From the IMG/VR virus record IMGVR_UViG_3300046000_005552, positions 1 through 21,281 of that record: DNA of 21,281 nucleotides, one strand, 5' to 3'. Of this stretch, positions 1-21,079 are shown in pieces (position 1 is the stretch's first letter; each line of letters begins with the position of its first letter). Below the pieces are notes generated by a model. It was not told the origin of the DNA, searched no databases, and worked only from the letters and a program-made list of their open reading frames with translations. The position numbers and the translations under genes were made by a program. The DNA is from a virus.

Positions 1-1285
1 CACTCCCGATAGATAAAGATGCGTTAAATAGCGTTAAACCACCTCCAGAGACAACCCCTTCAGCTATTGCACTCTTAACAGCATTAATTGCATCATCAAC
101 CCTATCAAGTTTCTCCTTTAACTCAACTTCTGTAATACTACCAACCTTAATAATTGATACTCCACAAGCAAGTTTAGATATCCTATCCTTTAGGTACTCC
201 TTCTCTGCTTTATTATTTGAGTTTTTAATTACCTTATTTAACTCATTAATCTTTGATTGTATCTTATCAGAATTAAATCTCTCATTAAAGAATAGGACAG
301 TATCCTCCTTAGTCGCAATTACCTTACTGCACTTACCTAGCAACTCCTCTGGGGAATATGCATCGAGGTTTGTCGATGTGTCTAAGTCAACAACTAAAGC
401 ATCTGTAGCTAACGCAATATCCGTTAAGTAGTCTCTCCTCTTCTCTCCAATTGATGGAGGTGTAATAACCGCAACCCTTAATCCATTCTTCTTATTTGAG
501 TATAGAACCTTCATTACCTCAAACTCCATTTCAGAAACAATAAATAGTTCTTGGTTATTCTTATGACAATGTTCTACAATTGGCAGAATCTCCCTAATGT
601 TTTGAAACTTACGGTTTGATAATAACAGTCTAGGTTCATTTGAAAACTCAATGCTCCTGTTTTCTGGTTTATTTATAAAACCCTCAAACTCCCAACCCCT
701 TGCAATTGGCATACCATCCACAAACTCTAAGTAGGTCTTAGATGTTTCTGATTGCTCATAAGACACAACACCATTCTTACCAGCCTTTACAAATGCCTGT
801 GCAATAATCTTTCCTAAGTCCTCGTCGTTATTAGAGGAAATCTTAGCAACGTCATAAATATAATCATTATCTACACTTACTGACTCAGACTTAATGTACT
901 CAATGGTATCCCTAACAGCCTCATCAATACCTTTCTTCACATCAATAGCAGAAACACCACTATTTAATGCCACCTCAGCTACCCTTAAGATTGCCTTTGT
1001 AAGTACTGCTGTACAGGTTGTTGAATCACCTGCCTCATTAACGGTCTTCCTACAAGCTTGCTTTACAAGTTCTGCCCCAAGACTCTCTGACGCATCCTCT
1101 AAGAAGATAGCCTCTGCAACTGATACTCCATCTTTAGTTACGATAGGTAATCCACCTGGACTCTCAATTAATACTGTTCTACCTCTATACCCCATAGTTG
1201 TAGCAACAGCATCACATACGATATTAATCCCCTTAATTAAGGGTTCTTTTGCTTCTTGGTTAAATTTAACTTCCTTAATGTTCAT
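1..1285 (-). CDS. groEL: GroEL-like chaperonin (Hsp60), 3' end outside window
   Basis: This gene reads leftward from ATG at 1285-1283 and stays open to the window edge, giving 428 codons of a family normally about 545 residues long. The protein aligns without large gaps to E. coli GroEL and keeps nearly the same numbering. The ATP-site residues are present: Thr30 and Gly32, the KDGVSVA motif with Asp52, GDSTT with Asp87 (GDGTT in GroEL), Asp398 in DRVDDA, and EGVVSGGG at 409-416. The apical domain contains GFINKP (202-207) and NIREILPI (229-236). Departures include Tyr33 for the usual Pro, Cys91 in GDSTTC, and PSIGEKRR where GroEL has PGFGDRR. The product should form a folding chamber in the host cytoplasm; a GroES-like gene lies at 12274. 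It has its own promoter, divergent from the virion operon. The identity is secure, but the C-terminal equatorial part and tail cannot be seen. Confidence 0.95.
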   Translation of the reverse strand, partial: MNIKEVKFNQEAKEPLIKGINIVCDAVATTMGYRGRTVLIESPGGLPIVTKDGVSVAEAIFLEDASESLGAELVKQACRKTVNEAGDSTTCTAVLTKAILRVAEVALNSGVSAIDVKKGIDEAVRDTIEYIKSESVSVDNDYIYDVAKISSNNDEDLGKIIAQAFVKAGKNGVVSYEQSETSKTYLEFVDGMPIARGWEFEGFINKPENRSIEFSNEPRLLLSNRKFQNIREILPIVEHCHKNNQELFIVSEMEFEVMKVLYSNKKNGLRVAVITPPSIGEKRRDYLTDIALATDALVVDLDTSTNLDAYSPEELLGKCSKVIATKEDTVLFFNERFNSDKIQSKINELNKVIKNSNNKAEKEYLKDRISKLACGVSIIKVGSITEVELKEKLDRVDDAINAVKSAIAEGVVSGGGLTLFNASLSIGS

Positions 1286-4028: not shown

Positions 4029-7000
4029 ATGGCTATTACAAAAATATTTGAAATTATTGATAAGGGCAGGGGTATAATTGAAGAATTAACCCCAGAAAAT
4101 CTATTGCTACTTAAAGAGGGTGGTGGTGGAGCACAAACGCTATCTGAAACCTTAGACAACGGGAATGTCACAGGAGGCTTTAATATACTTATAAATGATG
4201 CCGATGCAATTGAACTTGAAAATACTTCTTTGCTAAAAAAAGGTACTTATGATTATGGTGGGGATGGTGGTATTTCACGCATTTGCTCAGTAGGTTTTGA
4301 GGATATGTGGCAAAGTGGATTCAGACACGTTTTTGATAATAACGGACTTATAAGACATTCAACAAATTGCTTTGATGTTATTCCCGATGAAACTTTTGAC
4401 GATACATTAAGATTTAAAATTGATTCATTATGGACTTTAGATAACGGTACTACTTACAAATGTTTAGACGCAAGTACTGGAGCAGCGATTTGGGAGTTAT
4501 ATAACGTAGGAGGTATTCCAACGCTTCAAGAGGTTTTAGATAATAATCACGATTTAGTTGATGGCATATTTAATGCTGGGACACTTGCAGGAGATGGAAA
4601 TACAGGTTATAATCAAAACGCTTTAGGATATGAAGCTGGTTCTGATAATTCTGGTATTAACCAAAATGCTTTAGGAGAACGTGCTGGTGAAGTTAATACT
4701 GGTGATAATCAAAATGCTTTAGGGTGGTTTGCTGGTGCTAGTAACTCAGGTTATAATCAAAATACTTTAGGATATGAAAGTGGTGCTAGTAACTCAGGTG
4801 ATAATCAAAATGCTTTAGGATATTTTGCTGGTTTTTATAATACAGGAACAAATCAAAATGCTTTAGGTAATGCTGCTGGTCAAAACAATACAGGTAATAA
4901 TCAAAATGCTTTAGGTAATGCTGCTGGTGTAGATAACGCATTTAACAACGTAAACCTATTTGGAGAAAATGCACAAGCCGATGAAGATGGACAAACGGTA
5001 CTTTCAAAAGATGGTACAATTATGGCTCGTATCTCAACTGCTGATTTGACAGATACAAGGAAATATACTTTACCTGATGCGGATGGAACAATAGCTTTAA
5101 CAACCGACATTCCAACACTAACATCACAACTTACAAATGATGGAGAAGATGGTGTTAACCCATTTATATCCTTAGCTAATTTACCATATCAGATTGAAAT
5201 ATATGATGATTCAAGTTTGTTTCCTCTTGTTGGAAATGATGATATAGTATATCTTGCTGAAGATACGGGTATATTTTATTTATGGGATGGTACAGATTCA
5301 GTATACAATCAAATTACAAGCAATGCTTTCCCTACAGGTCTTGAAAAAATAACAGAAGGCAGTAATACAGGTTGGAGATTAATAGGTAGAAATCCTGCCA
5401 ACTATGGAAATATAGGTATGAATGCTGTTGATATTTCATCTAGTCTCACAGCTTCTTCAACAAGAGGTGCTCAGGGAGAATACTCTTTTGCACAAGGAAG
5501 GAATACTAGAGCAAGTGCAACAGCAGCAGTAGCTTTTGGTGACAATACTCAGGCAACCTCTCAATATGCTTTCGCACACGGAACTGACTCTCAAGCAACA
5601 AATAACTCAGCTGAAGCAGGTGGAAATAATACTGCTGCTTCAGGAAACTCTTCTGTTGCTAAAGGAACAGGAAATAGAGCAAGAAGTCTTGCAGAATTTT
5701 CAATTGGACAATGGGGAACAGACTACACTCCTGTAAGTGCTAGTAGTGCTACTAATACTACAGACAGAGTATTTAATCTTGGAAATGGATTAAGTGATGG
5801 TACAAGAAGTGATGCTTTTACTGTTTTTAAGAATGGAGCAGTAAAATTATTTGTTGGAGCTTTAGCAAGTATTACCAATGGAGTTGCTGGATTTTTTACA
5901 TTTAACTCTACAGATAGTAATAGACCTTATATTCATAATGGTACTGCTTGGAAAGGATTAGCATATAACGATGATATACCAACAAACACATCAGACTTAG
6001 TAAATGATGGAGAAGATGGTACATCTCCTTATGTAACTGCAGACCAACTACCTTCTAACCTTAATCTATACGCAACAAATGTTTCAAGTGATATAGCTAC
6101 ATATTTCAAGTTAGTAACTTCTATTGATGACCCTGATTATAATGATACTGCTGTAAATATACCAACAGGTGCAATTACAACAACAGGACAATTTATTGCT
6201 GCATTAGCAACAACTGCAAATGTATTAGTAGGTAATCCTGGAATTATAAATATATTAACAATAGGAAATGTAAGGAGAACATCAGGTACAGGTACAGCTG
6301 AGTTTTATTATGAAGTTTATCATAGAACTTCAGGAGGTACTGAAACACTAATTGCAACATCAAGTAATACACCTCCTGTAAATTCTGCTATTTATACTGA
6401 ATTTTTAGCTGCCGCTTTATTAAATAATGGCACATTCTTAGCAACTGACAGAATAGTTGTTAAGTATTATGCTGATAGAGTAGCAGGAGGAAGTAACCCT
6501 GAATATGACTTTCAGTTTGGTGGAACAAGTCCTGTAAGAACTAATTTTCCTATTCCTGCAACAAATATACCTTTAGATGCAACTCCGACTGATGGAAGTA
6601 CAAATGGTGTACAGAGCAATGGTGTGTTTGATGCTTTGGCTTTGAAAGCTAATAAAGAGAATAATTATTTTTTAAATTGGTTTCCAACAGGAAGTATAAT
6701 AACTATAAACAATTATACATCAACTGTTTCTAGTACAGCTTTTAGTTCAACCACTTCAAATTCAAATAATTTAACTAAACTTCAACCATTTGTAACAAAT
6801 AAAACTATTACAATTGATGAATTGTATTTGAGCTTGGCTACTGCAAATAACGGAACAGGTTCAACCGCTACATTATATATATTTGATGATTCAAATGATG
6901 GATTACCTGGAGTTAAACTGCATCAAGAAATAACAGCAACAGGTATATTTACAGCAGGAAACTCTATTATTTCATTTACAAATAACATCACATTACAACC

Positions 7001-7247
7001 TGGTGTTTATTGGATTGGTATCCATATCAGGGATTTGAATACAGCTGGTACAAATCCTACTTTTTATCACGCTTCTTTAGGAGGCAATACAAAAGGTTAT
7101 CAAACAGCTGCAATTTCATTTACAAATAACTACCTAGGTACATTGTTTGTTGGAGCTACAACAGGTGATTTAGGGAATAATCCAACTATATTAGTATCAG
7201 CTGGAACATCACTTTTATTACCAATGTTAAAAATTAAAATAGGATGA
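4029..7247 (+). CDS. Large tail fibre with two classes of short beta-roll-like repeats
   Basis: This 1072-residue protein is the largest in the window. Residues 195-306 are seven perfect-length 16-residue repeats with consensus NQNALGxxAGxxNTGx. Residues about 485-560 hold a second, unrelated set (FAQGRNTRAS, AFGDNTQATS, FAHGTDSQAT, ...) resembling the head repeats of YadA-like trimeric adhesins. A linker with PTxTSxLxNDGEDG occurs twice, near residues 360 and 649. Around residue 865 is DATPTDGSTNGVQSNGVFDA, familiar from phage fibres, followed by a beta-sandwich-like C-terminal domain of about 190 residues, which may be glycan-binding. It is most likely a trimeric host-recognition fibre. Its stop overlaps the next start by 4 nt (ATGA). 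Confidence 0.85.
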   Translation: MAITKIFEIIDKGRGIIEELTPENLLLLKEGGGGAQTLSETLDNGNVTGGFNILINDADAIELENTSLLKKGTYDYGGDGGISRICSVGFEDMWQSGFRHVFDNNGLIRHSTNCFDVIPDETFDDTLRFKIDSLWTLDNGTTYKCLDASTGAAIWELYNVGGIPTLQEVLDNNHDLVDGIFNAGTLAGDGNTGYNQNALGYEAGSDNSGINQNALGERAGEVNTGDNQNALGWFAGASNSGYNQNTLGYESGASNSGDNQNALGYFAGFYNTGTNQNALGNAAGQNNTGNNQNALGNAAGVDNAFNNVNLFGENAQADEDGQTVLSKDGTIMARISTADLTDTRKYTLPDADGTIALTTDIPTLTSQLTNDGEDGVNPFISLANLPYQIEIYDDSSLFPLVGNDDIVYLAEDTGIFYLWDGTDSVYNQITSNAFPTGLEKITEGSNTGWRLIGRNPANYGNIGMNAVDISSSLTASSTRGAQGEYSFAQGRNTRASATAAVAFGDNTQATSQYAFAHGTDSQATNNSAEAGGNNTAASGNSSVAKGTGNRARSLAEFSIGQWGTDYTPVSASSATNTTDRVFNLGNGLSDGTRSDAFTVFKNGAVKLFVGALASITNGVAGFFTFNSTDSNRPYIHNGTAWKGLAYNDDIPTNTSDLVNDGEDGTSPYVTADQLPSNLNLYATNVSSDIATYFKLVTSIDDPDYNDTAVNIPTGAITTTGQFIAALATTANVLVGNPGIINILTIGNVRRTSGTGTAEFYYEVYHRTSGGTETLIATSSNTPPVNSAIYTEFLAAALLNNGTFLATDRIVVKYYADRVAGGSNPEYDFQFGGTSPVRTNFPIPATNIPLDATPTDGSTNGVQSNGVFDALALKANKENNYFLNWFPTGSIITINNYTSTVSSTAFSSTTSNSNNLTKLQPFVTNKTITIDELYLSLATANNGTGSTATLYIFDDSNDGLPGVKLHQEITATGIFTAGNSIISFTNNITLQPGVYWIGIHIRDLNTAGTNPTFYHASLGGNTKGYQTAAISFTNNYLGTLFVGATTGDLGNNPTILVSAGTSLLLPMLKIKIG
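4611..4946 (+). repeat. Seven tandem 48-bp coding repeats
   Basis: Seven consecutive 48-bp units encode the 16-residue repeats NQNALGxxAGxx(N)(T/S)G of the large fibre. An eighth, degenerate partial unit (NVNLFGENA) follows. Units vary at the residue pair after LG and at the loop residues, while the Asn-Gln-Asn-Ala-Leu-Gly core is almost fixed. Unit 4 has Thr for Ala and Ser for Ala. Confidence 0.95.
5481..5708 (+). repeat. YadA-head-like coding repeats in the fibre
   Basis: Imperfect units of roughly 14 residues with the pattern A-x-G-x-x-T-x-A-[ST] recur about five times (FAQGRNTRAS, AFGDNTQATS, FAHGTDSQAT, EAGGNNTAAS, VAKGTGNRAR). They end in FSIGQW. The spacing and the Gly/Ala/Thr rhythm resemble the left-handed beta-roll of YadA-type adhesin heads. 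The structural match is inferred from pattern only. Confidence 0.7.
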
Positions 7248-7675
7248 AACATATAATAGACTTAAATGGGTTTTATGTAGGTTTTGGTGGTTCTAAAACA
7301 GAACTGCAACAAGGTCAAAACGAAGTGCCATTTGCTCCAATTGATGGTTTAATTAAACCAAAATGGAATGGTACAGAATGGACTGAGGGAGCAACAGCTG
7401 AGGAATTAGCAGAATATCAACGTTCATTAATTCCACAAGTAATAACTCGTAGACAGTTCAAAATAGCTTTAGCGGTATTAGGTAAGAATGAAAACGATAT
7501 ATTAAATGGCATTAATCAATTACCTGAACCAACAAAAACAATAGCTTTAATTAGCTACACAGAAGCTGGAACATTTGAACGTAATAATCCTGAATTGATT
7601 TTTGTAGGTAAGACATTTTTACAAATGACAGATGAGCAAATCGATGAAATATTTAACATTGGGAATCAGTATTGA
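7244..7675 (+). CDS. Fibre-associated small phage protein
   Basis: The 143-residue product overlaps the fibre stop by 4 nt, so it is probably translated by coupling. Its middle carries KPKWNGTEWTEGATAEELAE (residues about 39-58), a motif often found in short proteins encoded just behind tail fibres. A C-terminal helical segment RRQFKIALAVLGKNENDIL then leads to ISYTEAGTFERNNPELI. That second half resembles the small phage domain R-Q-x-x-x-A-L ... lp ... a-l-i-x-[WY]-e-x-a-x-x-f-x-R-x-x-P that commonly accompanies fibres. It could be a fibre chaperone, a fibre tip or a minor tail component. No catalytic residues are recognised. Confidence 0.65.
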   Translation: MKHIIDLNGFYVGFGGSKTELQQGQNEVPFAPIDGLIKPKWNGTEWTEGATAEELAEYQRSLIPQVITRRQFKIALAVLGKNENDILNGINQLPEPTKTIALISYTEAGTFERNNPELIFVGKTFLQMTDEQIDEIFNIGNQY

Positions 7676-7676
7676 T

Positions 7677-8024
7677 ATGGGAATCCTTTTATATTTTGTA
7701 GCTATAATTTTGTACTTACCACTTACCATTATAAACACTATTTTGGTTTTAAACAAGTATGGTTGGAAATTCAAAACTATTGATGACTATTTTTTTCAAA
7801 CAGCAGTTGATATTGACAAGTTTGCAAATAGAAACTTTAGGACTTTATGGAATCAAACATTGCAAAAGAATGGCTATCAGTTCGGAGATGAAAGGGAAAC
7901 GGTTTCAAGTGCTTTAGGTAAAAATAAAAGAGATAACACACTAACACAAACGGGTAAAATACTTTGTGATTTATTAGATAGACTAGATGAAAATCATTGT
8001 ATAAAATCAATTAAAGAATTATGA
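7677..8024 (+). CDS. Small membrane protein with conserved soluble tail (lysis block)
   Basis: I choose ATG at 7677, one base after the preceding stop codon, giving 115 residues. An in-frame ATG at 7632 would overlap the upstream gene by 44 nt and add 15 residues before the hydrophobic segment. Residues about 3-25 form a strong transmembrane helix (ILLYFVAIILYLPLTIINTI). The soluble part contains ANRNFRTLWNQTLQKNGYQF, then ETVSSALGKNKRDNTLTQTG and KILCDLLDRLDENHC. I associate this pattern with small proteins near lysis genes in Bacteroidota phages, though no function is known to me. Its stop overlaps the next gene by 4 nt (ATGA). A helper of lysis or a host-envelope-modifying protein is possible. 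Confidence 0.65.
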   Translation: MGILLYFVAIILYLPLTIINTILVLNKYGWKFKTIDDYFFQTAVDIDKFANRNFRTLWNQTLQKNGYQFGDERETVSSALGKNKRDNTLTQTGKILCDLLDRLDENHCIKSIKEL

Positions 8025-9607
8025 AGAATTTAATCTATACAATAATCTTGTTAGTTACAAACTTGTTACTTGCTCAAACAGTTAGTTATAATGAAAGTGC
8101 ATCTATTATAGCTAACCCTGAAAGAGGATTGCAGAAATATTCATCCACATCTTCTGATGGTGTTGTTAGCTTATTGCCAACATTTACTTATAATCAGTTA
8201 AACCAAACCACCCTAACAGGTTGGAGAACAGGAGCAGATAAAATAACTGTTGTATATAGATACTTTATTCTACCATCTGTAGACTTAAATACAACATATC
8301 TAACCAATATGCAGACTGATTTTAATAGAATCCGTAATGCAGGGATAAAGACCATTATAAGATTTGCATATACAAATGATTGTAATACAGGATGTGATAC
8401 AGGAACAAATCCACAACAACCTACAAAGGCACAAGTATTAGCACACATCTCTCAATTATCTAATGTAATAAATACCAATAAAGATATAATATTATCAATT
8501 CAATGTGGATTTATTGGTACTTGGGGAGAATGGTATTATACAGGGTCTGCTGAATTTGGACATAAAGGAACTGTTAGTGTTACACAATGGCAGAATAGAA
8601 AGCAAGTAGTTGATTCAATGTTGTCTAATTTTCATATAGACATTCCTTTACAGGTTAGATATGCTAATGCTAAAAGACAGATGTATGGTAGTGCAATACC
8701 AACTAATTTTGGTCAAGATAGGGTGGGATTTTATAATGATGCTTTTTTAAATTCCTATGGAGATATGGGAACATATAATGTTTCAAGTAAACTTACTAAT
8801 CCAGTAGGAACTTCTGATTATAATTTTATATCCAATACATCAAAGTATTTACCTATGACAGGAGAAACTAATGGATTAAATGCTCCAAGAACTGATGTGG
8901 TAAATGCAATTAATGAAATGAACCAATTGAACTTTTCAGTTTTAAATAGAGACTATTTTACACAAAATTGGAATAATTGGATATCTTCAGGAAAATATAA
9001 TGAAATTGTAAAGAATCTTGGATATAGACTTGTGTTAGTAAGTAGTACTCTTTCAGGGAATGAATTATCATTACAAGTTGTGAATAATGGTTATTCAAAA
9101 GTGCTGTTTAATAAAAACACTTATTTAGTTTTAAGAAGTGTTAATGGAGATATAAAGAGATTAATAGGTATTGATATTAGAACCTTGAATAAAGGATTAA
9201 ACAATGTATCAGTAACAATCCCTTCTGACATACCTAATGGTAGTTATTCTATACTATTACATATTGCAGATAAAAACTTAGAAAACAAACCTGAATATTC
9301 AATACAATTTGCAAATAATAATATATTTGAAACAACAACTGGTTATAATAACTTAAACCAAACGTATATAAAGGGGACACCAACAGATATTTTTCAGTCA
9401 GTGGTTATTTTCCCAAATCCTTTTATAAATCAAATTAATATAAGTGGTATTACAGGATATACAGTTAAGGTGAGAAATTCAAGAAATAGAAATGTTGCCT
9501 TCACATTAGTAAATAATGTAGTTACATTAAACGTAAATAGAGGAACTTACTATTTAACTATAACAAAAAATGGTCTATCAAGAACATACACTATAATCAA
9601 AAATTAA
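8021..9607 (+). CDS. Secreted DUF4874/DUF4832 protein with T9SS sorting domain
   Basis: This 528-residue protein starts with a typical Sec signal peptide (MKNLIYTIILLVTNLLLAQ). The DUF4874 region follows: NPERGLQKY (32-40), VVYRYFIL, IKTIIRFAYTND, and the signature GFIGTWGEWYY (163-173) with Glu170. The DUF4832-type region includes RVGFYNDAFL, a GETNG segment and LNRDYF, and runs to about residue 440. The last 70 residues form a type A T9SS sorting domain: IFPNPFINQINI (463-474) and GTYYLTITKNG near the end. Such proteins are exported through Sec and then T9SS to the cell surface or medium of Bacteroidota. The barrel-like core and conserved acidic residues suggest a glycan-active enzyme, which is unproven. 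The start overlaps the preceding stop (ATGA), tying it to the phage operon. A host-derived acquisition is likely. Confidence 0.85.
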   Translation: MKNLIYTIILLVTNLLLAQTVSYNESASIIANPERGLQKYSSTSSDGVVSLLPTFTYNQLNQTTLTGWRTGADKITVVYRYFILPSVDLNTTYLTNMQTDFNRIRNAGIKTIIRFAYTNDCNTGCDTGTNPQQPTKAQVLAHISQLSNVINTNKDIILSIQCGFIGTWGEWYYTGSAEFGHKGTVSVTQWQNRKQVVDSMLSNFHIDIPLQVRYANAKRQMYGSAIPTNFGQDRVGFYNDAFLNSYGDMGTYNVSSKLTNPVGTSDYNFISNTSKYLPMTGETNGLNAPRTDVVNAINEMNQLNFSVLNRDYFTQNWNNWISSGKYNEIVKNLGYRLVLVSSTLSGNELSLQVVNNGYSKVLFNKNTYLVLRSVNGDIKRLIGIDIRTLNKGLNNVSVTIPSDIPNGSYSILLHIADKNLENKPEYSIQFANNNIFETTTGYNNLNQTYIKGTPTDIFQSVVIFPNPFINQINISGITGYTVKVRNSRNRNVAFTLVNNVVTLNVNRGTYYLTITKNGLSRTYTIIKN

Positions 9608-9618
9608 TAATATAACTT

Positions 9619-9906
9619 ATGAAATTCAATTTTGTAAAACTAGACTTTATGGCAGTTGTGAATGATTTTAAATTGTTTACGTGGTCAGAATTTATTAAAC
9701 AGCGTTATTACTTGCATTTTGTAATAAACGCTTTAATTTGTACCTTTGCATTTTATCCTTTGGCGGTAGGATTCTTTGTTACTGTTTTAGCAGCGTTTAG
9801 AGAAGCGTATTACACGATGAAGAACAAAACACCATTTGATTGGGCAGATATTAGATGGACTGCATACGGAGCAATTTTTACATTTATAATAAAATTAATA
9901 TTTTAG
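9619..9906 (+). CDS. Holin-like small membrane protein
   Basis: The 95-residue protein has two hydrophobic segments, about residues 33-57 (HFVINALICTFAFYPLAVGF and onward) and 78-95 (ending IFTFIIKLIF). They are separated by a polar loop with FREAYYTMKNKTPFDWADIR. A short amphipathic N-terminus precedes them. Size, two membrane passes and position just before a coiled-coil membrane protein and an amidase without signal peptide fit a holin that lets the endolysin cross the inner membrane. The loop pattern (R-E-x-Y ... D-W-x-D-x-R) also occurs in phage membrane proteins of unknown role, so the holin call is an inference. Confidence 0.6.
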   Translation: MKFNFVKLDFMAVVNDFKLFTWSEFIKQRYYLHFVINALICTFAFYPLAVGFFVTVLAAFREAYYTMKNKTPFDWADIRWTAYGAIFTFIIKLIF

Positions 9907-9909
9907 ATT

Positions 9910-10299
9910 ATGGCATTTAATTGGTTAGAGATACTATTAGCAATAGGAGGAACATCAGGAATCACAACTATCTTAACGTTACAAATACAAAGACGTAAAG
10001 GCAAAGCAGAAGCTGGACAAGAGGAAGCAAAGGCACATCAAGAAGACGTTAAGGCGAAAAAAGATTTGGCAGATTTAGAGAGAGATATTTATACTAGACT
10101 AATTAGTACTGTTAATACTGAACTTGAAACTCGTGATAAGAAAATAGATGAACTTCAAGAAACACAAAACGGATTGTTAAAGACTATTGATTTGCAAAAC
10201 GGTAACATTAAGCATCTTCAGAAAATGGTTGATGACTATAAAGCAACTTGCGATAACTGTCAGGTTAGAATTGATAAAACAAAAAAAGTAACCAAATGA
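9910..10299 (+). CDS. Membrane-anchored coiled-coil protein, spanin/holin-like
   Basis: The 129-residue product has one N-terminal membrane segment (residues about 5-24, LEILLAIGGTSGITTILTLQ). A long, highly charged, heptad-like coiled coil follows from about residue 30 to 112. A CxxC pair (Cys114, Cys117) and a basic tail close the protein. This architecture matches inner-membrane spanins (Rz-like) or other lysis accessory proteins that bridge or regulate envelope layers. It starts 3 nt after the holin-like gene and overlaps the amidase start by 4 nt (ATGA). The topology is visible in the sequence; the lysis role is inferred from neighbours. Confidence 0.6.
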   Translation: MAFNWLEILLAIGGTSGITTILTLQIQRRKGKAEAGQEEAKAHQEDVKAKKDLADLERDIYTRLISTVNTELETRDKKIDELQETQNGLLKTIDLQNGNIKHLQKMVDDYKATCDNCQVRIDKTKKVTK

Positions 10300-10805
10300 A
10301 TAAAATAGCTGTAGTTGTAGGACACGATGCAATCGAACAAGGTGCATTCTCAAACATTATTAAAAAATCAGAGTTTGCCTATCATTCAGAAGTAGCAAAA
10401 TTACTACCATTTGATGTTTACTACCGTTCAAAGGGTGGAAGTTATAAGTCAAAAATGGAAGAGTTAGCTAAACAGATAAATGGTAAGGGGTATACCTTAG
10501 TTATAGAACTACATTTTAATTCATTTAATGGTGTTGCAAATGGCACAGAGGCACTTTACTTTGATGGTTCTATAAATGGAAAGAGATGGGCAGAGGTTTA
10601 TGTTGATAAAATATGTTCAGAGTACAAGACATCAACAAGGGGTGCAAAGGTTATAAAGCATAAAGATGAAAGAGGATATTGGTTTCTTAAATTAATGGAT
10701 GCACCTGCGATTATACTTGAACCTTTCTTTGGCGATAATAAAGAGGCTGTTAGTTTTAAGGATGTAAATAAATATGCTAAATCATTAATAGACATATTTT
10801 GTTAA
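10296..10805 (+). CDS. N-acetylmuramoyl-L-alanine amidase (endolysin, Amidase_3 type)
   Basis: This 169-residue enzyme is a minimal Amidase_3 fold that should cleave the bond between N-acetylmuramic acid and the L-alanine of the peptide stem in peptidoglycan. The zinc-site pattern is complete: His10 in VVVGHD, Glu26 in SEFAYH, His73 in IELHFNSF, and the catalytic Glu142 in AIILEPFFGDN. There is no signal peptide and no separate cell-wall-binding domain, so release through a holin is expected; the upstream gene at 9619 is a candidate. The length is close to that of a single catalytic domain. This is the endolysin of the phage with good confidence. Confidence 0.88.
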   Translation: MNKIAVVVGHDAIEQGAFSNIIKKSEFAYHSEVAKLLPFDVYYRSKGGSYKSKMEELAKQINGKGYTLVIELHFNSFNGVANGTEALYFDGSINGKRWAEVYVDKICSEYKTSTRGAKVIKHKDERGYWFLKLMDAPAIILEPFFGDNKEAVSFKDVNKYAKSLIDIFC

Positions 10806-10829
10806 AGAAATAATATAAAAAAATATAAA

Positions 10830-11660
10830 ATGGCAAGAATTAAAAATTATGTTGTAGATGGTATATTGTCTGATAATGATAAGGTTATTGGAACTGACGT
10901 AGATTCTCTTAATCAAACAAAGAATTATAAATTATCAGATATAAGAAGTTATGTAGTTTCTGGCTTATCTCCAGAAATTGGCGGTACTTTCAAGATTTCA
11001 GAAGTAGTTTACGAGGGAGAATTGGAGACACCTGAAGAAGTAGCTAATGAGTTAGACCCAAGTTACATTGTTTCTGCTTATGAGAATTTGTTTTTTAATG
11101 TTAATGGGGATTTATATTTGTTAAATAAAACGGATATAAACATTGGTGTTTCACAAACCGCATTAACAAGTGCTGATTTTATTGAATTTCCGACAAGCGT
11201 AGGACCAACAGGTGCAACTGGAAATGGTATTTCATCAATCTCTTTATTATCAACTGTAGGTCTTGTAAAAACATATAGAATAATTTATACAAATTCAGCA
11301 TTCTTTGATTTTGCAGTAACAGATGGAACAAATGGAACAAATGGAACAAATTATACAGCAAATAATTTACAAAGAACAGTTACTGCATCAACCACTATTT
11401 TAGAAACGGATAATAATTCTACAATTATAATTAATAACGGAGCTACAGCTATAAATATTACAGTACCAACAGGTCTTAGTTCTAAGTTTGCGATAGGATT
11501 TATTCAGCAAGGAACAGCAGATGTTACTTTTGTACCATCAGGAACAACCATTAATTCCCCATTAGATTATTTAAAAATTAAAGGAGAAAATTATTGGGCT
11601 TACTTGGAAAAAGTAGGTACGTCAGAGGTATTTCAATTAGCTGGAGAAATAAAAGAATAG
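10830..11660 (+). CDS. Appendage protein with MARIK-type N-terminal module and collagen-like linker
   Basis: The 276-residue product begins with the same N-terminal module as the gene at 2650 (MARIK, NDxxIGTDxD and TKN blocks at equivalent positions). A small globular part follows (residues about 50-125). Next is a collagen-like stretch GPTGATGNG (about 127-135), a beta-rich unit ending in a DGTNGTNGTN loop, and a C-terminal beta domain (RTVTASTTILETDNNSTIII ... ENYWAYLEK). That last domain resembles beta-helical or trimeric fibre ends that contain Ile-Asn-Asn-Gly turns. It is probably a virion appendage that docks at the same type of site as the 2650 product. Placement after the amidase means that fibre-type genes flank the lysis block on both sides. 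Confidence 0.7.
   Translation: MARIKNYVVDGILSDNDKVIGTDVDSLNQTKNYKLSDIRSYVVSGLSPEIGGTFKISEVVYEGELETPEEVANELDPSYIVSAYENLFFNVNGDLYLLNKTDINIGVSQTALTSADFIEFPTSVGPTGATGNGISSISLLSTVGLVKTYRIIYTNSAFFDFAVTDGTNGTNGTNYTANNLQRTVTASTTILETDNNSTIIINNGATAINITVPTGLSSKFAIGFIQQGTADVTFVPSGTTINSPLDYLKIKGENYWAYLEKVGTSEVFQLAGEIKE
11325..11351 (+). repeat. Three tandem 9-bp repeats (GGAACAAAT)
   Basis: Three exact copies of GGAACAAAT encode Gly-Thr-Asn x3 in a loop of the appendage protein. Exact identity in DNA suggests recent slippage expansion and possible length variation between relatives. Confidence 0.9.
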
Positions 11661-12273: not shown

Positions 12274-12819
12274 ATGAAGAGTCCTCATTACTTTATAGTC
12301 AAACCTATTGACTCTGAAAGATATTGTAATAAATCTTCAAGTGGATTGATTATTAATGCATCTCTTGAGGACCACTCATATACTCAAAGGTTAGCTACTG
12401 TAGTATCTACGCCAATAGGGTATGAAGGCGATGTAGAGGAGGGAGACACAATTGTTGTGCATCATAATACATTTAGGGTGCAGTATAATAATCAAGGCGT
12501 TCCATTAGAGAGTAAGTACCACATTGAGGATGACTTATTTTATGTTGAAGTACCATTGGCATATATGGTTATTAAGAGTGACAACTCAAAAATAGCACTG
12601 CCACCTTATTGTTTTGTAGAACAAGCATACGTTAATGACAAGTGGGAGGGGTTAATTCAAGAGAAACAGTATGGTTTCTTAAGGTATAAAAATAAAGATA
12701 TGACTGAGTTTAATGTATCTGATAAAGTAGGTATGAAGGAAGACTCTGAATATGAATTTAATATCTTTGATGAGAAGCTATATATGATGAATCAAAACAG
12801 ATTATTATTTACCGTATGA
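12274..12819 (+). CDS. GroES-like co-chaperonin with extra C-terminal half
   Basis: Residues 1-103 follow the GroES (Cpn10) beta-barrel. A first strand (HYFIVKPID) leads to a mobile-loop segment CNKSSSGLIINAS, in which Leu25-Ile26-Ile27 takes the place of the GroES Ile-Val-Leu that grips GroEL. A strand RLATVVSTPIG follows, then the turn GDVEEGDTIVVHHNTFRV (GroES: VKVGDIVIF), an enlarged loop at about 70-82, and the closing strand LFYVEVPLAYMVI (GroES: VLIMSESDILAIV). Residues 107-181 are extra; their end (KVGMKEDSEYEFNIF ... KLYMMNQNRLLFTV) looks like a degenerate copy of the GroES second half. GroES is about 97 residues. It should cap a GroEL-type ring, perhaps the one encoded at 1-1285. 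It overlaps the terminase start by 4 nt. The fold call rests on pattern matching. Confidence 0.78.
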   Translation: MKSPHYFIVKPIDSERYCNKSSSGLIINASLEDHSYTQRLATVVSTPIGYEGDVEEGDTIVVHHNTFRVQYNNQGVPLESKYHIEDDLFYVEVPLAYMVIKSDNSKIALPPYCFVEQAYVNDKWEGLIQEKQYGFLRYKNKDMTEFNVSDKVGMKEDSEYEFNIFDEKLYMMNQNRLLFTV

Positions 12820-20332: not shown

Positions 20333-20361
20333 AAAGAGAGGCTAAACACCTCTCTTTTTTT
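20333..20361 (+). terminator. Intrinsic terminator after the capsid gene
   Basis: A perfect 9-bp stem AAAGAGAGG (20333-20341) / CCTCTCTTT (20349-20357) with a 7-nt loop runs straight into a T-tract ending at 20361. It lies about 30 nt after the capsid stop and touches the end of the converging HNH gene. The minus-strand side has a weaker T-rich tail, so partial bidirectional action is possible. Confidence 0.85.
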
Positions 20362-21079
20362 ATTTAATACTACTTCCTTTTTTTAAATTATCCTGCCACC
20401 ACAAAGGCTGTATATTTGTATAGTGACAAAGACCTTCTAATTCTTCTTTATTTTTTGCACTACATAATGGTATTATATGGTCTAAATGCCATCCCTTTAA
20501 TCCTCTATTTTCCCAAGTCATACCTTCAGTAAATTTAGACTCTAAATATTCTTTAAATTTCTGAGGAGTACATCCTATTAAATCAGAAGTTTTTGTAGGT
20601 TTTTCAAAACCTTTTAATTTGAACGCTGTTTTTGTTCTTGTCCTATATACTTTTATTAATCTATATAGTTCATCTTCTTTGCTTCTTTTTTTTTCGTAAT
20701 TATTATTAATTTTACTTATGCTTTCTTTATTGTTTTTATAATACTCTTTATTTTTAACAGATAGCTTTTCTTTATTTTCAACCCAATATTTTTTATTTCT
20801 TTCTATACATTCTTCTCTTTTAAAATCCCATCTATCTCTATTGTATTTTTCTTGCTTATCTTTATTATCTATTCTCCATTCTTTTAAGTATTGGTTTATT
20901 TCATCTCTTTTTTCTACTCTTCTTTTCATACTTCTTTCTTTTTGTATTTCAGGATTAGCTCGATAAGACTCTTTTCTTTTAGCTTTACTACAATCCTTGC
21001 ATTCAGCTCTTCCAGAATAAAATAATTCTATATTTTTTTCTTCAGAACACTTAGTACATTTTTTTTTAATTTCATTCAT
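20360..21079 (-). CDS. HNH endonuclease with N-terminal zinc finger, free-standing homing type
   Basis: The 239-residue product has an N-terminal zinc-ribbon pattern (Cys8-x2-Cys11 ... Cys27-x2-Cys30). A long, highly basic, Lys/Glu/Asn-rich helical region follows (about 35-140). The C-terminal HNH motif includes WHLDHIIPL (Asp200-His201), TNIQPLWW (Asn222) and the closing Asn231-Lys233. Such enzymes nick or cut DNA at specific sites; free-standing copies between phage virion genes usually spread as homing elements. It lies on the strand opposite to the capsid region, with its own promoter box, between the capsid gene and the next virion gene. It reads as an insertion in the structural operon. 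A packaging-linked HNH nuclease is an alternative, less likely given the reversed direction. Confidence 0.88.
   Translation of the reverse strand: MNEIKKKCTKCSEEKNIELFYSGRAECKDCSKAKRKESYRANPEIQKERSMKRRVEKRDEINQYLKEWRIDNKDKQEKYNRDRWDFKREECIERNKKYWVENKEKLSVKNKEYYKNNKESISKINNNYEKKRSKEDELYRLIKVYRTRTKTAFKLKGFEKPTKTSDLIGCTPQKFKEYLESKFTEGMTWENRGLKGWHLDHIIPLCSAKNKEELEGLCHYTNIQPLWWQDNLKKGSSIK

Follow-up and report, generated by a model that had tools for sequence, protein, structure and literature searches.

A predicted T9SS-tagged glycosidase in the fibre-lysis module of an Elemovirus-like phage, with untagged sister copies in other Bacteroidota phages

Introduction

Enzymes with which phages attack the surface sugars of their hosts normally travel on the virion or are freed by lysis. 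The locus described here raises the question of whether a phage may also send such an enzyme out of the infected cell through the type IX secretion system (T9SS) of its host. If so, the T9SS would become part of the phage life cycle, and infected cells could act on their surroundings before bursting. The window, by which we mean the whole stretch of 21,281 bases of virus DNA that was analysed, contains a gene that had been described in a sequence-only reading as a phage gene for a protein with a signal peptide, DUF4874/DUF4832 domains and a T9SS-type tail. Our analysis confirms this observation as a whole and lends partial support to the interpretation placed on it.

Genomic context and host

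The genes around the enzyme run in the order fibre, fibre-associated gene, membrane protein, enzyme, TM protein, Rz-like protein and amidase endolysin. Together with the parts of the enzyme gene, they are:

4029..7247 (+), tail fibre-like protein with YadA-head-like repeats, belonging to the variable fibre-lysis module
7244..7675 (+), small fibre-associated protein (phrog_6034)
7632..8024 (+), small membrane protein whose stop overlaps the enzyme gene start (phrog_3342)
8021..9607 (+), CDS for the T9SS-tagged DUF4874/DUF4832 protein, 528 aa
8021..8074 (+), signal peptide, residues 1-18, predicted cleavage after LLLA and before QTV (sequence; alignment)
8114..8665 (+), DUF4874 (PF16173), residues 32-215, first half of the TIM barrel (113.8 bits, gathering cut-off 30.1; model)
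8528..8530 (+), codon of Glu170 (GEWYY), invariant, in the loop after barrel strand 4, candidate acid/base (conservation; model)
8720..9316 (+), DUF4832 (PF16116), residues 234-432, remaining barrel and beta domain (143.1 bits, gathering cut-off 29.2; model)
8864..8866 (+), codon of Glu282 (GETN), the candidate nucleophile, an invariant residue immediately after barrel strand 7 (conservation; model)
9407..9604 (+), T9SS type A sorting domain, residues 463-528, predicted to form seven beta strands (TIGR04183; tail HMM; model)
9619..9906 (+), TM protein in a holin-like position, by eye resembling the gene after the enzyme in L126
9910..10299 (+), TM and coiled-coil protein with a weak Rz-like spanin match (phrog_739, E 0.0076)
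10296..10805 (+), endolysin, N-acetylmuramoyl-L-alanine amidase, Amidase_3 (phrog_435, 8.7e-32)

The overlap with a phage neighbour and the place in the lysis block, both pointed out from the sequence, are borne out, as ATGA forms the last four bases of ORF 7632-8024 and the start of the enzyme ORF 8021-9607, and the TM protein, the Rz-like protein and the Amidase_3 endolysin lie on its 3' side. The fibre protein at 4029-7247 holds many NQNALG-type repeats with a weak YadA-head match, and segments of it are ~60% identical to proteins of the phage records L003 and L005, so that fibre pieces seem to have been exchanged between different phages.

The backbone of the window (GroEL, terminase (TerL), portal and major capsid protein) is 77-81% identical to that of elemoA-E (Elemovirus), with values of 77%, 79%, 80% and 81%, respectively, against elemoA 7-9A. 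Judged on the identity of these proteins, the window phage is an Elemovirus-like Flavobacterium phage. Phages elemoA-E differ from it in having another fibre-lysis module, without a DUF4832 gene. From ~1.9 to 12.0 kb the window gave only partial tblastn matches to elemoA (ORFs 2650 and 10830), which makes its fibre-lysis module unlike that of elemoA; the enzyme gene sits inside this divergent module, and a TIGR04183 search of the whole elemoA genome found no T9SS tail. The closest isolated phages infect Flavobacterium, and from these relatives we infer that the host of the window phage is a Flavobacterium as well. SprA was present in all six Flavobacterium genomes tested (G001, G002, G017-G020). 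Contamination with host DNA was considered as a source of the gene and rejected, because phage genes lie on both flanks and the backbone matches elemo phages.

Enzyme domains and predicted fold

Profile searches place the protein far over both gathering cut-offs for DUF4874 and DUF4832, in agreement with the motifs first seen by eye. A fold model made from 70 window and locus proteins reached a mean pLDDT of 91.2 and comprises a TIM barrel together with a beta domain and a folded tail; an earlier model, built on six sequences, was set aside for its poor quality (pLDDT 56). The best structural matches were beta-amylases and GH5 enzymes (Z about 14), and glycoside hydrolases made up most of the first Foldseek matches listed. 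Four residues (E170, R213, D240 and E282) are invariant in the 70 sequences and sit, in the model, where barrel strands 4-7 end or a short way beyond. Retaining glycosidases of clan GH-A are characterised by a pair of Glu residues, one after strand 4 and one after strand 7, and the conserved E170 and E282 match this GH-A type arrangement. By its predicted fold, the window protein is a probable TIM-barrel glycosidase.

A DUF4832 protein of Streptococcus intermedius, SIR_1591, provides a precedent for activity: its TIM barrel resembles those of beta-amylase and beta-galactosidase, and the protein, when tested, was an active hydrolase that disperses polysaccharide aggregates, breaking up those of Pel (PMC12345266). 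It is likened to the window protein by domain and fold, and differs in being bacterial and membrane-anchored, with no T9SS tail described (PMC12345266). The suggestion that the phage protein is glycan-active is strengthened by this precedent, by the predicted glycosidase fold and by the two invariant Glu residues of catalytic type. In sequence searches the protein had no match in the PDB, in PHROGs or among 50,697 deposited phage records. BFVD already holds a viral DUF4832 protein without a described function (Ackermannviridae sp. ctaCq7).

Signal peptide and C-terminal tail

The N-terminus (MKNLIYTIILLVTNLLLAQTV) has a basic n-region, a hydrophobic core and a cleavage site between A18 and Q19, giving it, by inspection, the look of a typical Bacteroidota signal peptide. 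It also aligns with the signal peptides of bacterial homologues, and both lines of evidence uphold the earlier prediction of this feature.

At the other end of the protein, the match to TIGR04183 spans residues 463-528 of 528 and profile positions 1-72 of 72, and is therefore of full length and at the extreme C-terminus. The proposed C-terminal sorting domain stands on this full-length match and on the tail HMM described below, with the qualification that it scored 24 bits in a six-frame search, over the cut-off of 23, and 18.7 bits (E 0.0013), under that cut-off, as a whole protein. Pfam PF18962 gave only 10.3 bits. We also built a host-tail HMM from 13 Flavobacterium and Aquimarina tails; because L117, one of the 13, is the same tail as that of L048, the score of L048 with this HMM is not independent. 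The window tail scored 8.3 bits with it, compared with 7.2 for the best of 5000 self-shuffles and 1.3 for the next window ORF. As it exceeds all shuffles and the other window ORFs, the tail is, on this comparison, real in kind but divergent: it has the lowest host-tail HMM score among the complete tagged phage copies, and its middle motif (NSRNRNV) lacks the Gly that usually precedes the conserved Val. The window's own TIGR04183 match is weak, and the case for a real tail rests on comparison with relatives.

Bacterial homologues and sprA

A scan of genome contigs yielded 77 homologous loci. Homologues from Flavobacterium, Aquimarina and others have the same order of parts and strong tails (73 bits with the host-tail HMM for L026), while copies from Actinoplanes and rumen Bacteroidales have none. 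The search for SprA covered 25 of the homologue genomes, and sprA, which encodes the T9SS channel, was found in 15 of 15 genomes with a tailed copy versus 1 of 10 with an untailed copy, the sole exception being L091. Since the tail tracks sprA in bacteria, it behaves as a T9SS tag. The routing of the phage protein through the T9SS, as first proposed, gains from this pattern and from the recurrence of such tails in phages; the predicted transport itself is based on comparison.

Four Aquimarina and Flavobacterium proteins (L020, L027, L038 and L048) have the signal peptide, DUF4874, DUF4832 and T9SS tail in an order identical to that of the window protein, with up to about 50% identity. They differ in being chromosomal host genes, and the phage copies fall in separate clades. 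Such host homologues stand alone: inspection of eight loci revealed no conserved partner gene or polysaccharide cluster nearby, and the neighbours name no substrate. The bacterial homologues are probably ordinary secreted enzymes, and this shared architecture would fit a role in which the phage enzyme feeds the host, and hence the phage, with sugars from environmental polysaccharides during a slow infection. We hold such a benefit to the host to be very improbable, because the gene lies in the fibre-lysis block and its recurrent neighbours are fibre and lysis genes, not metabolic ones.

Distribution and evolution in phages

Relatives of the gene occur in 14 other IMG/VR records, which range from 7 to 430 kb; the copies in two of them, L128 and L129, are near-identical. 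Among 11 records tested, the terminase of the window is shared only by L003 and L012; L005 is related to the Cellulophaga phages phi17:2 and phi4:1, and in the 430 kb contig of L013 a terminase gene is close by. When whole records were searched, 11 of the 14 had a TIGR04183 match, always a single one and always in the enzyme gene. Nine of these matches are over the cut-off (23.3-27.8 bits for L002a, L003, L004 and L005, 39.1 for L126 and 45.3 for L007), and those under it belong to L010 and to L014, the latter with an incomplete tail. The fusion of signal peptide, enzyme and tail that the sequence-only reading suggested looking for in other phages is thus recurrent, and it is found beside fibre and lysis genes. 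In L002, L003, L005, L012 and L016 the enzyme gene shares an ATGA overlap with a small gene located after a fibre gene, just as the enzyme gene of the window overlaps the gene before it.

In the tree, the phage copies fall into two groups made up of phage sequences only, both well supported (100/99 and 100/98), and the window groups with L007, L008, L002b and L016. Pairs of phage copies have dN/dS values of about 0.06-0.18 for the enzyme core and 0.28 to 0.54 for the tail (Nei-Gojobori method, several dS values being near saturation). Judged by these ratios, the core of the phage copies is under purifying selection. The phage-only groups and the low core dN/dS together point to a gene long kept by phages, neither freshly captured nor a contaminant. 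The dN/dS of the tail, which exceeds that of the core, counts against the T9SS reading, as do the weakness of the window tail and its missing Gly.

In L007 (5857-9015), the enzyme frame opens with about 45 residues that resemble the N-terminus of the gene that follows (9224-9601), which would fit an insertion with partial duplication; the signal-like segment is then internal.

Tagged and untagged copies

Ten complete proteins have both a signal peptide and a tail (the window, L002a, L003, L004, L005, L008, L010, L012, L013 and L126), and L014, which ends within its tail, is an 11th phage protein with both tags. Neither tag is present in the three other copies that can be scored, L002b, L017 and L128/L129, and no scored phage copy has one tag without the other. 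These tallies count sequences rather than independent events. L014 and L016 end at the contig end, L016 being a copy without a signal peptide that stops before a tail would start. The signal-peptide tally does not include L007, whose frame opens about 45 residues ahead of a signal-like segment that has no usual start codon adjacent to it. What is new here is that copies without a signal peptide also go without the T9SS tail, and that two of them are joined to repeated phage modules instead.

The first of these, L128, has 1051 residues, and a module in the stretch that follows the enzyme recurs in the neighbouring gene (local score 144, against 69 for the best of 500 shuffles). The second, L002b, has an N-terminal module that recurs in both of its upstream neighbours (scores 67 and 60, with 35 and 36 as the best shuffle scores). 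L128 and its neighbour had no match in deposited phages or in PHROGs, and the L002b module gave only chance matches in deposited phages. As the L128 modules match no known virion family, a virion role for L128 and its neighbour is suggested by the shared module. On this basis, the untagged copies joined to phage modules (L128/L129 and L002b) are likely addressed to the virion.

These sister copies bear on the main alternative raised for the window protein, namely that it is a virion-bound depolymerase, a tail component like other phage depolymerases, with terminal tags that are vestiges of a bacterial gene. The enzyme gene does follow a tail fibre gene, and the untagged sisters are joined to repeated phage modules. 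However, those sisters lack both tags, while the window protein and ten others have both, and a cleavable signal peptide would take the protein out of the cytoplasm, where virions are assembled; even for the L128 modules, the virion role is a putative one. We therefore regard a virion-bound window protein as quite unlikely, and the virion as the likely address of some sister copies without tags.

The two kinds of copies together suggest that Bacteroidota phages share this glycosidase as an exchangeable part with two addresses, the host T9SS for copies with both tags and the virion for copies with neither that carry phage modules; we judge the chances of this broader scheme to be about even. 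Its tagged and untagged sister enzymes offer a ready-made comparison for T9SS routing. L002 may use both addresses at once.

In L002, three adjacent genes at 8672-11290 share the N-terminal module (IG..xNLLxxIxKQxxR), one of them with the untagged enzyme, and a tagged copy lies at 6779-8278. A single 430 kb phage contig likewise holds two copies, L013 with tags and L017 without.

Proposed role during infection

We think it probable, from sequence comparison, that the window gene encodes a late, T9SS-secreted phage glycosidase that clears host surface polysaccharide (capsule or exopolysaccharide) around lysis. The course of events that we infer, from late expression through T9SS transport and enzymatic activity to substrate and benefit, would be as follows. 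Late expression of the gene would yield a secreted glycoside hydrolase, which the Sec pathway would export by means of its signal peptide. The host T9SS would recognise the folded C-terminal domain, and the enzyme would pass the SprA channel to the cell surface or the medium before the holin stops the energy supply of the cell. Outside, the TIM barrel, with Glu170 and Glu282, would cleave surface polysaccharide. The likeliest benefit would be the clearing of capsule or exopolysaccharide, which would keep progeny from becoming trapped on the infected cell, on its debris or on neighbouring cells.

The same routing evidence would serve a different outcome, in which the T9SS-delivered enzyme trims the receptor glycan of the phage itself and thereby blocks the adsorption of sister phages. 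Variable T9SS cargo has been proposed to act in superinfection exclusion in Cryophage (PMC7468147), and a link between the enzyme and tail fibre genes is seen in several phages. Sequence cannot separate such receptor masking from the clearing of exopolysaccharide, but the adjoining lysis genes favour release over exclusion, and we consider receptor masking unlikely.

A T9SS-routed phage product had been regarded as an unusual interface between phage and host, and it now appears less unusual. Cryophage carries, in variable islands, genes for an endoglucanase, a GH39 and a PA14 protein that end in a T9SS type A sorting domain and are predicted to use the host T9SS (PMC7468147). Likewise, crAss-like phages of cluster 2 have proteins with T9SS tails near structural genes (PMC6949934). 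These precedents make phage T9SS cargo a kind already known. The Cryophage cargo differs in its catalytic domains and was described for one phage, without a comparison of tagged and untagged copies (PMC7468147), and the crAss-like proteins have BACON domains rather than a glycosidase, their function having been left open (PMC6949934). What is added here is the type of enzyme, its spread over several phage lineages and the contrast between tagged and untagged copies; a limited search of open-licence papers found no T9SS-tagged DUF4832 phage protein.

Other genes of the window

Directly after the capsid gene lies an ORF at 20360-21079 (-) with an HNH-like motif (HLDHIIPL...NIQPLWWQDNLKK), which had no match within the elemoA region searched. 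The elemo counterpart of the gene at 12274-12819 (+) is annotated as chaperonin cpn10. The phage GroEL mentioned above (77% identical to elemoA GroEL) is encoded at 2-1285 (-), and a GroEL gene is also found downstream of the lysis genes in L003 and L012.
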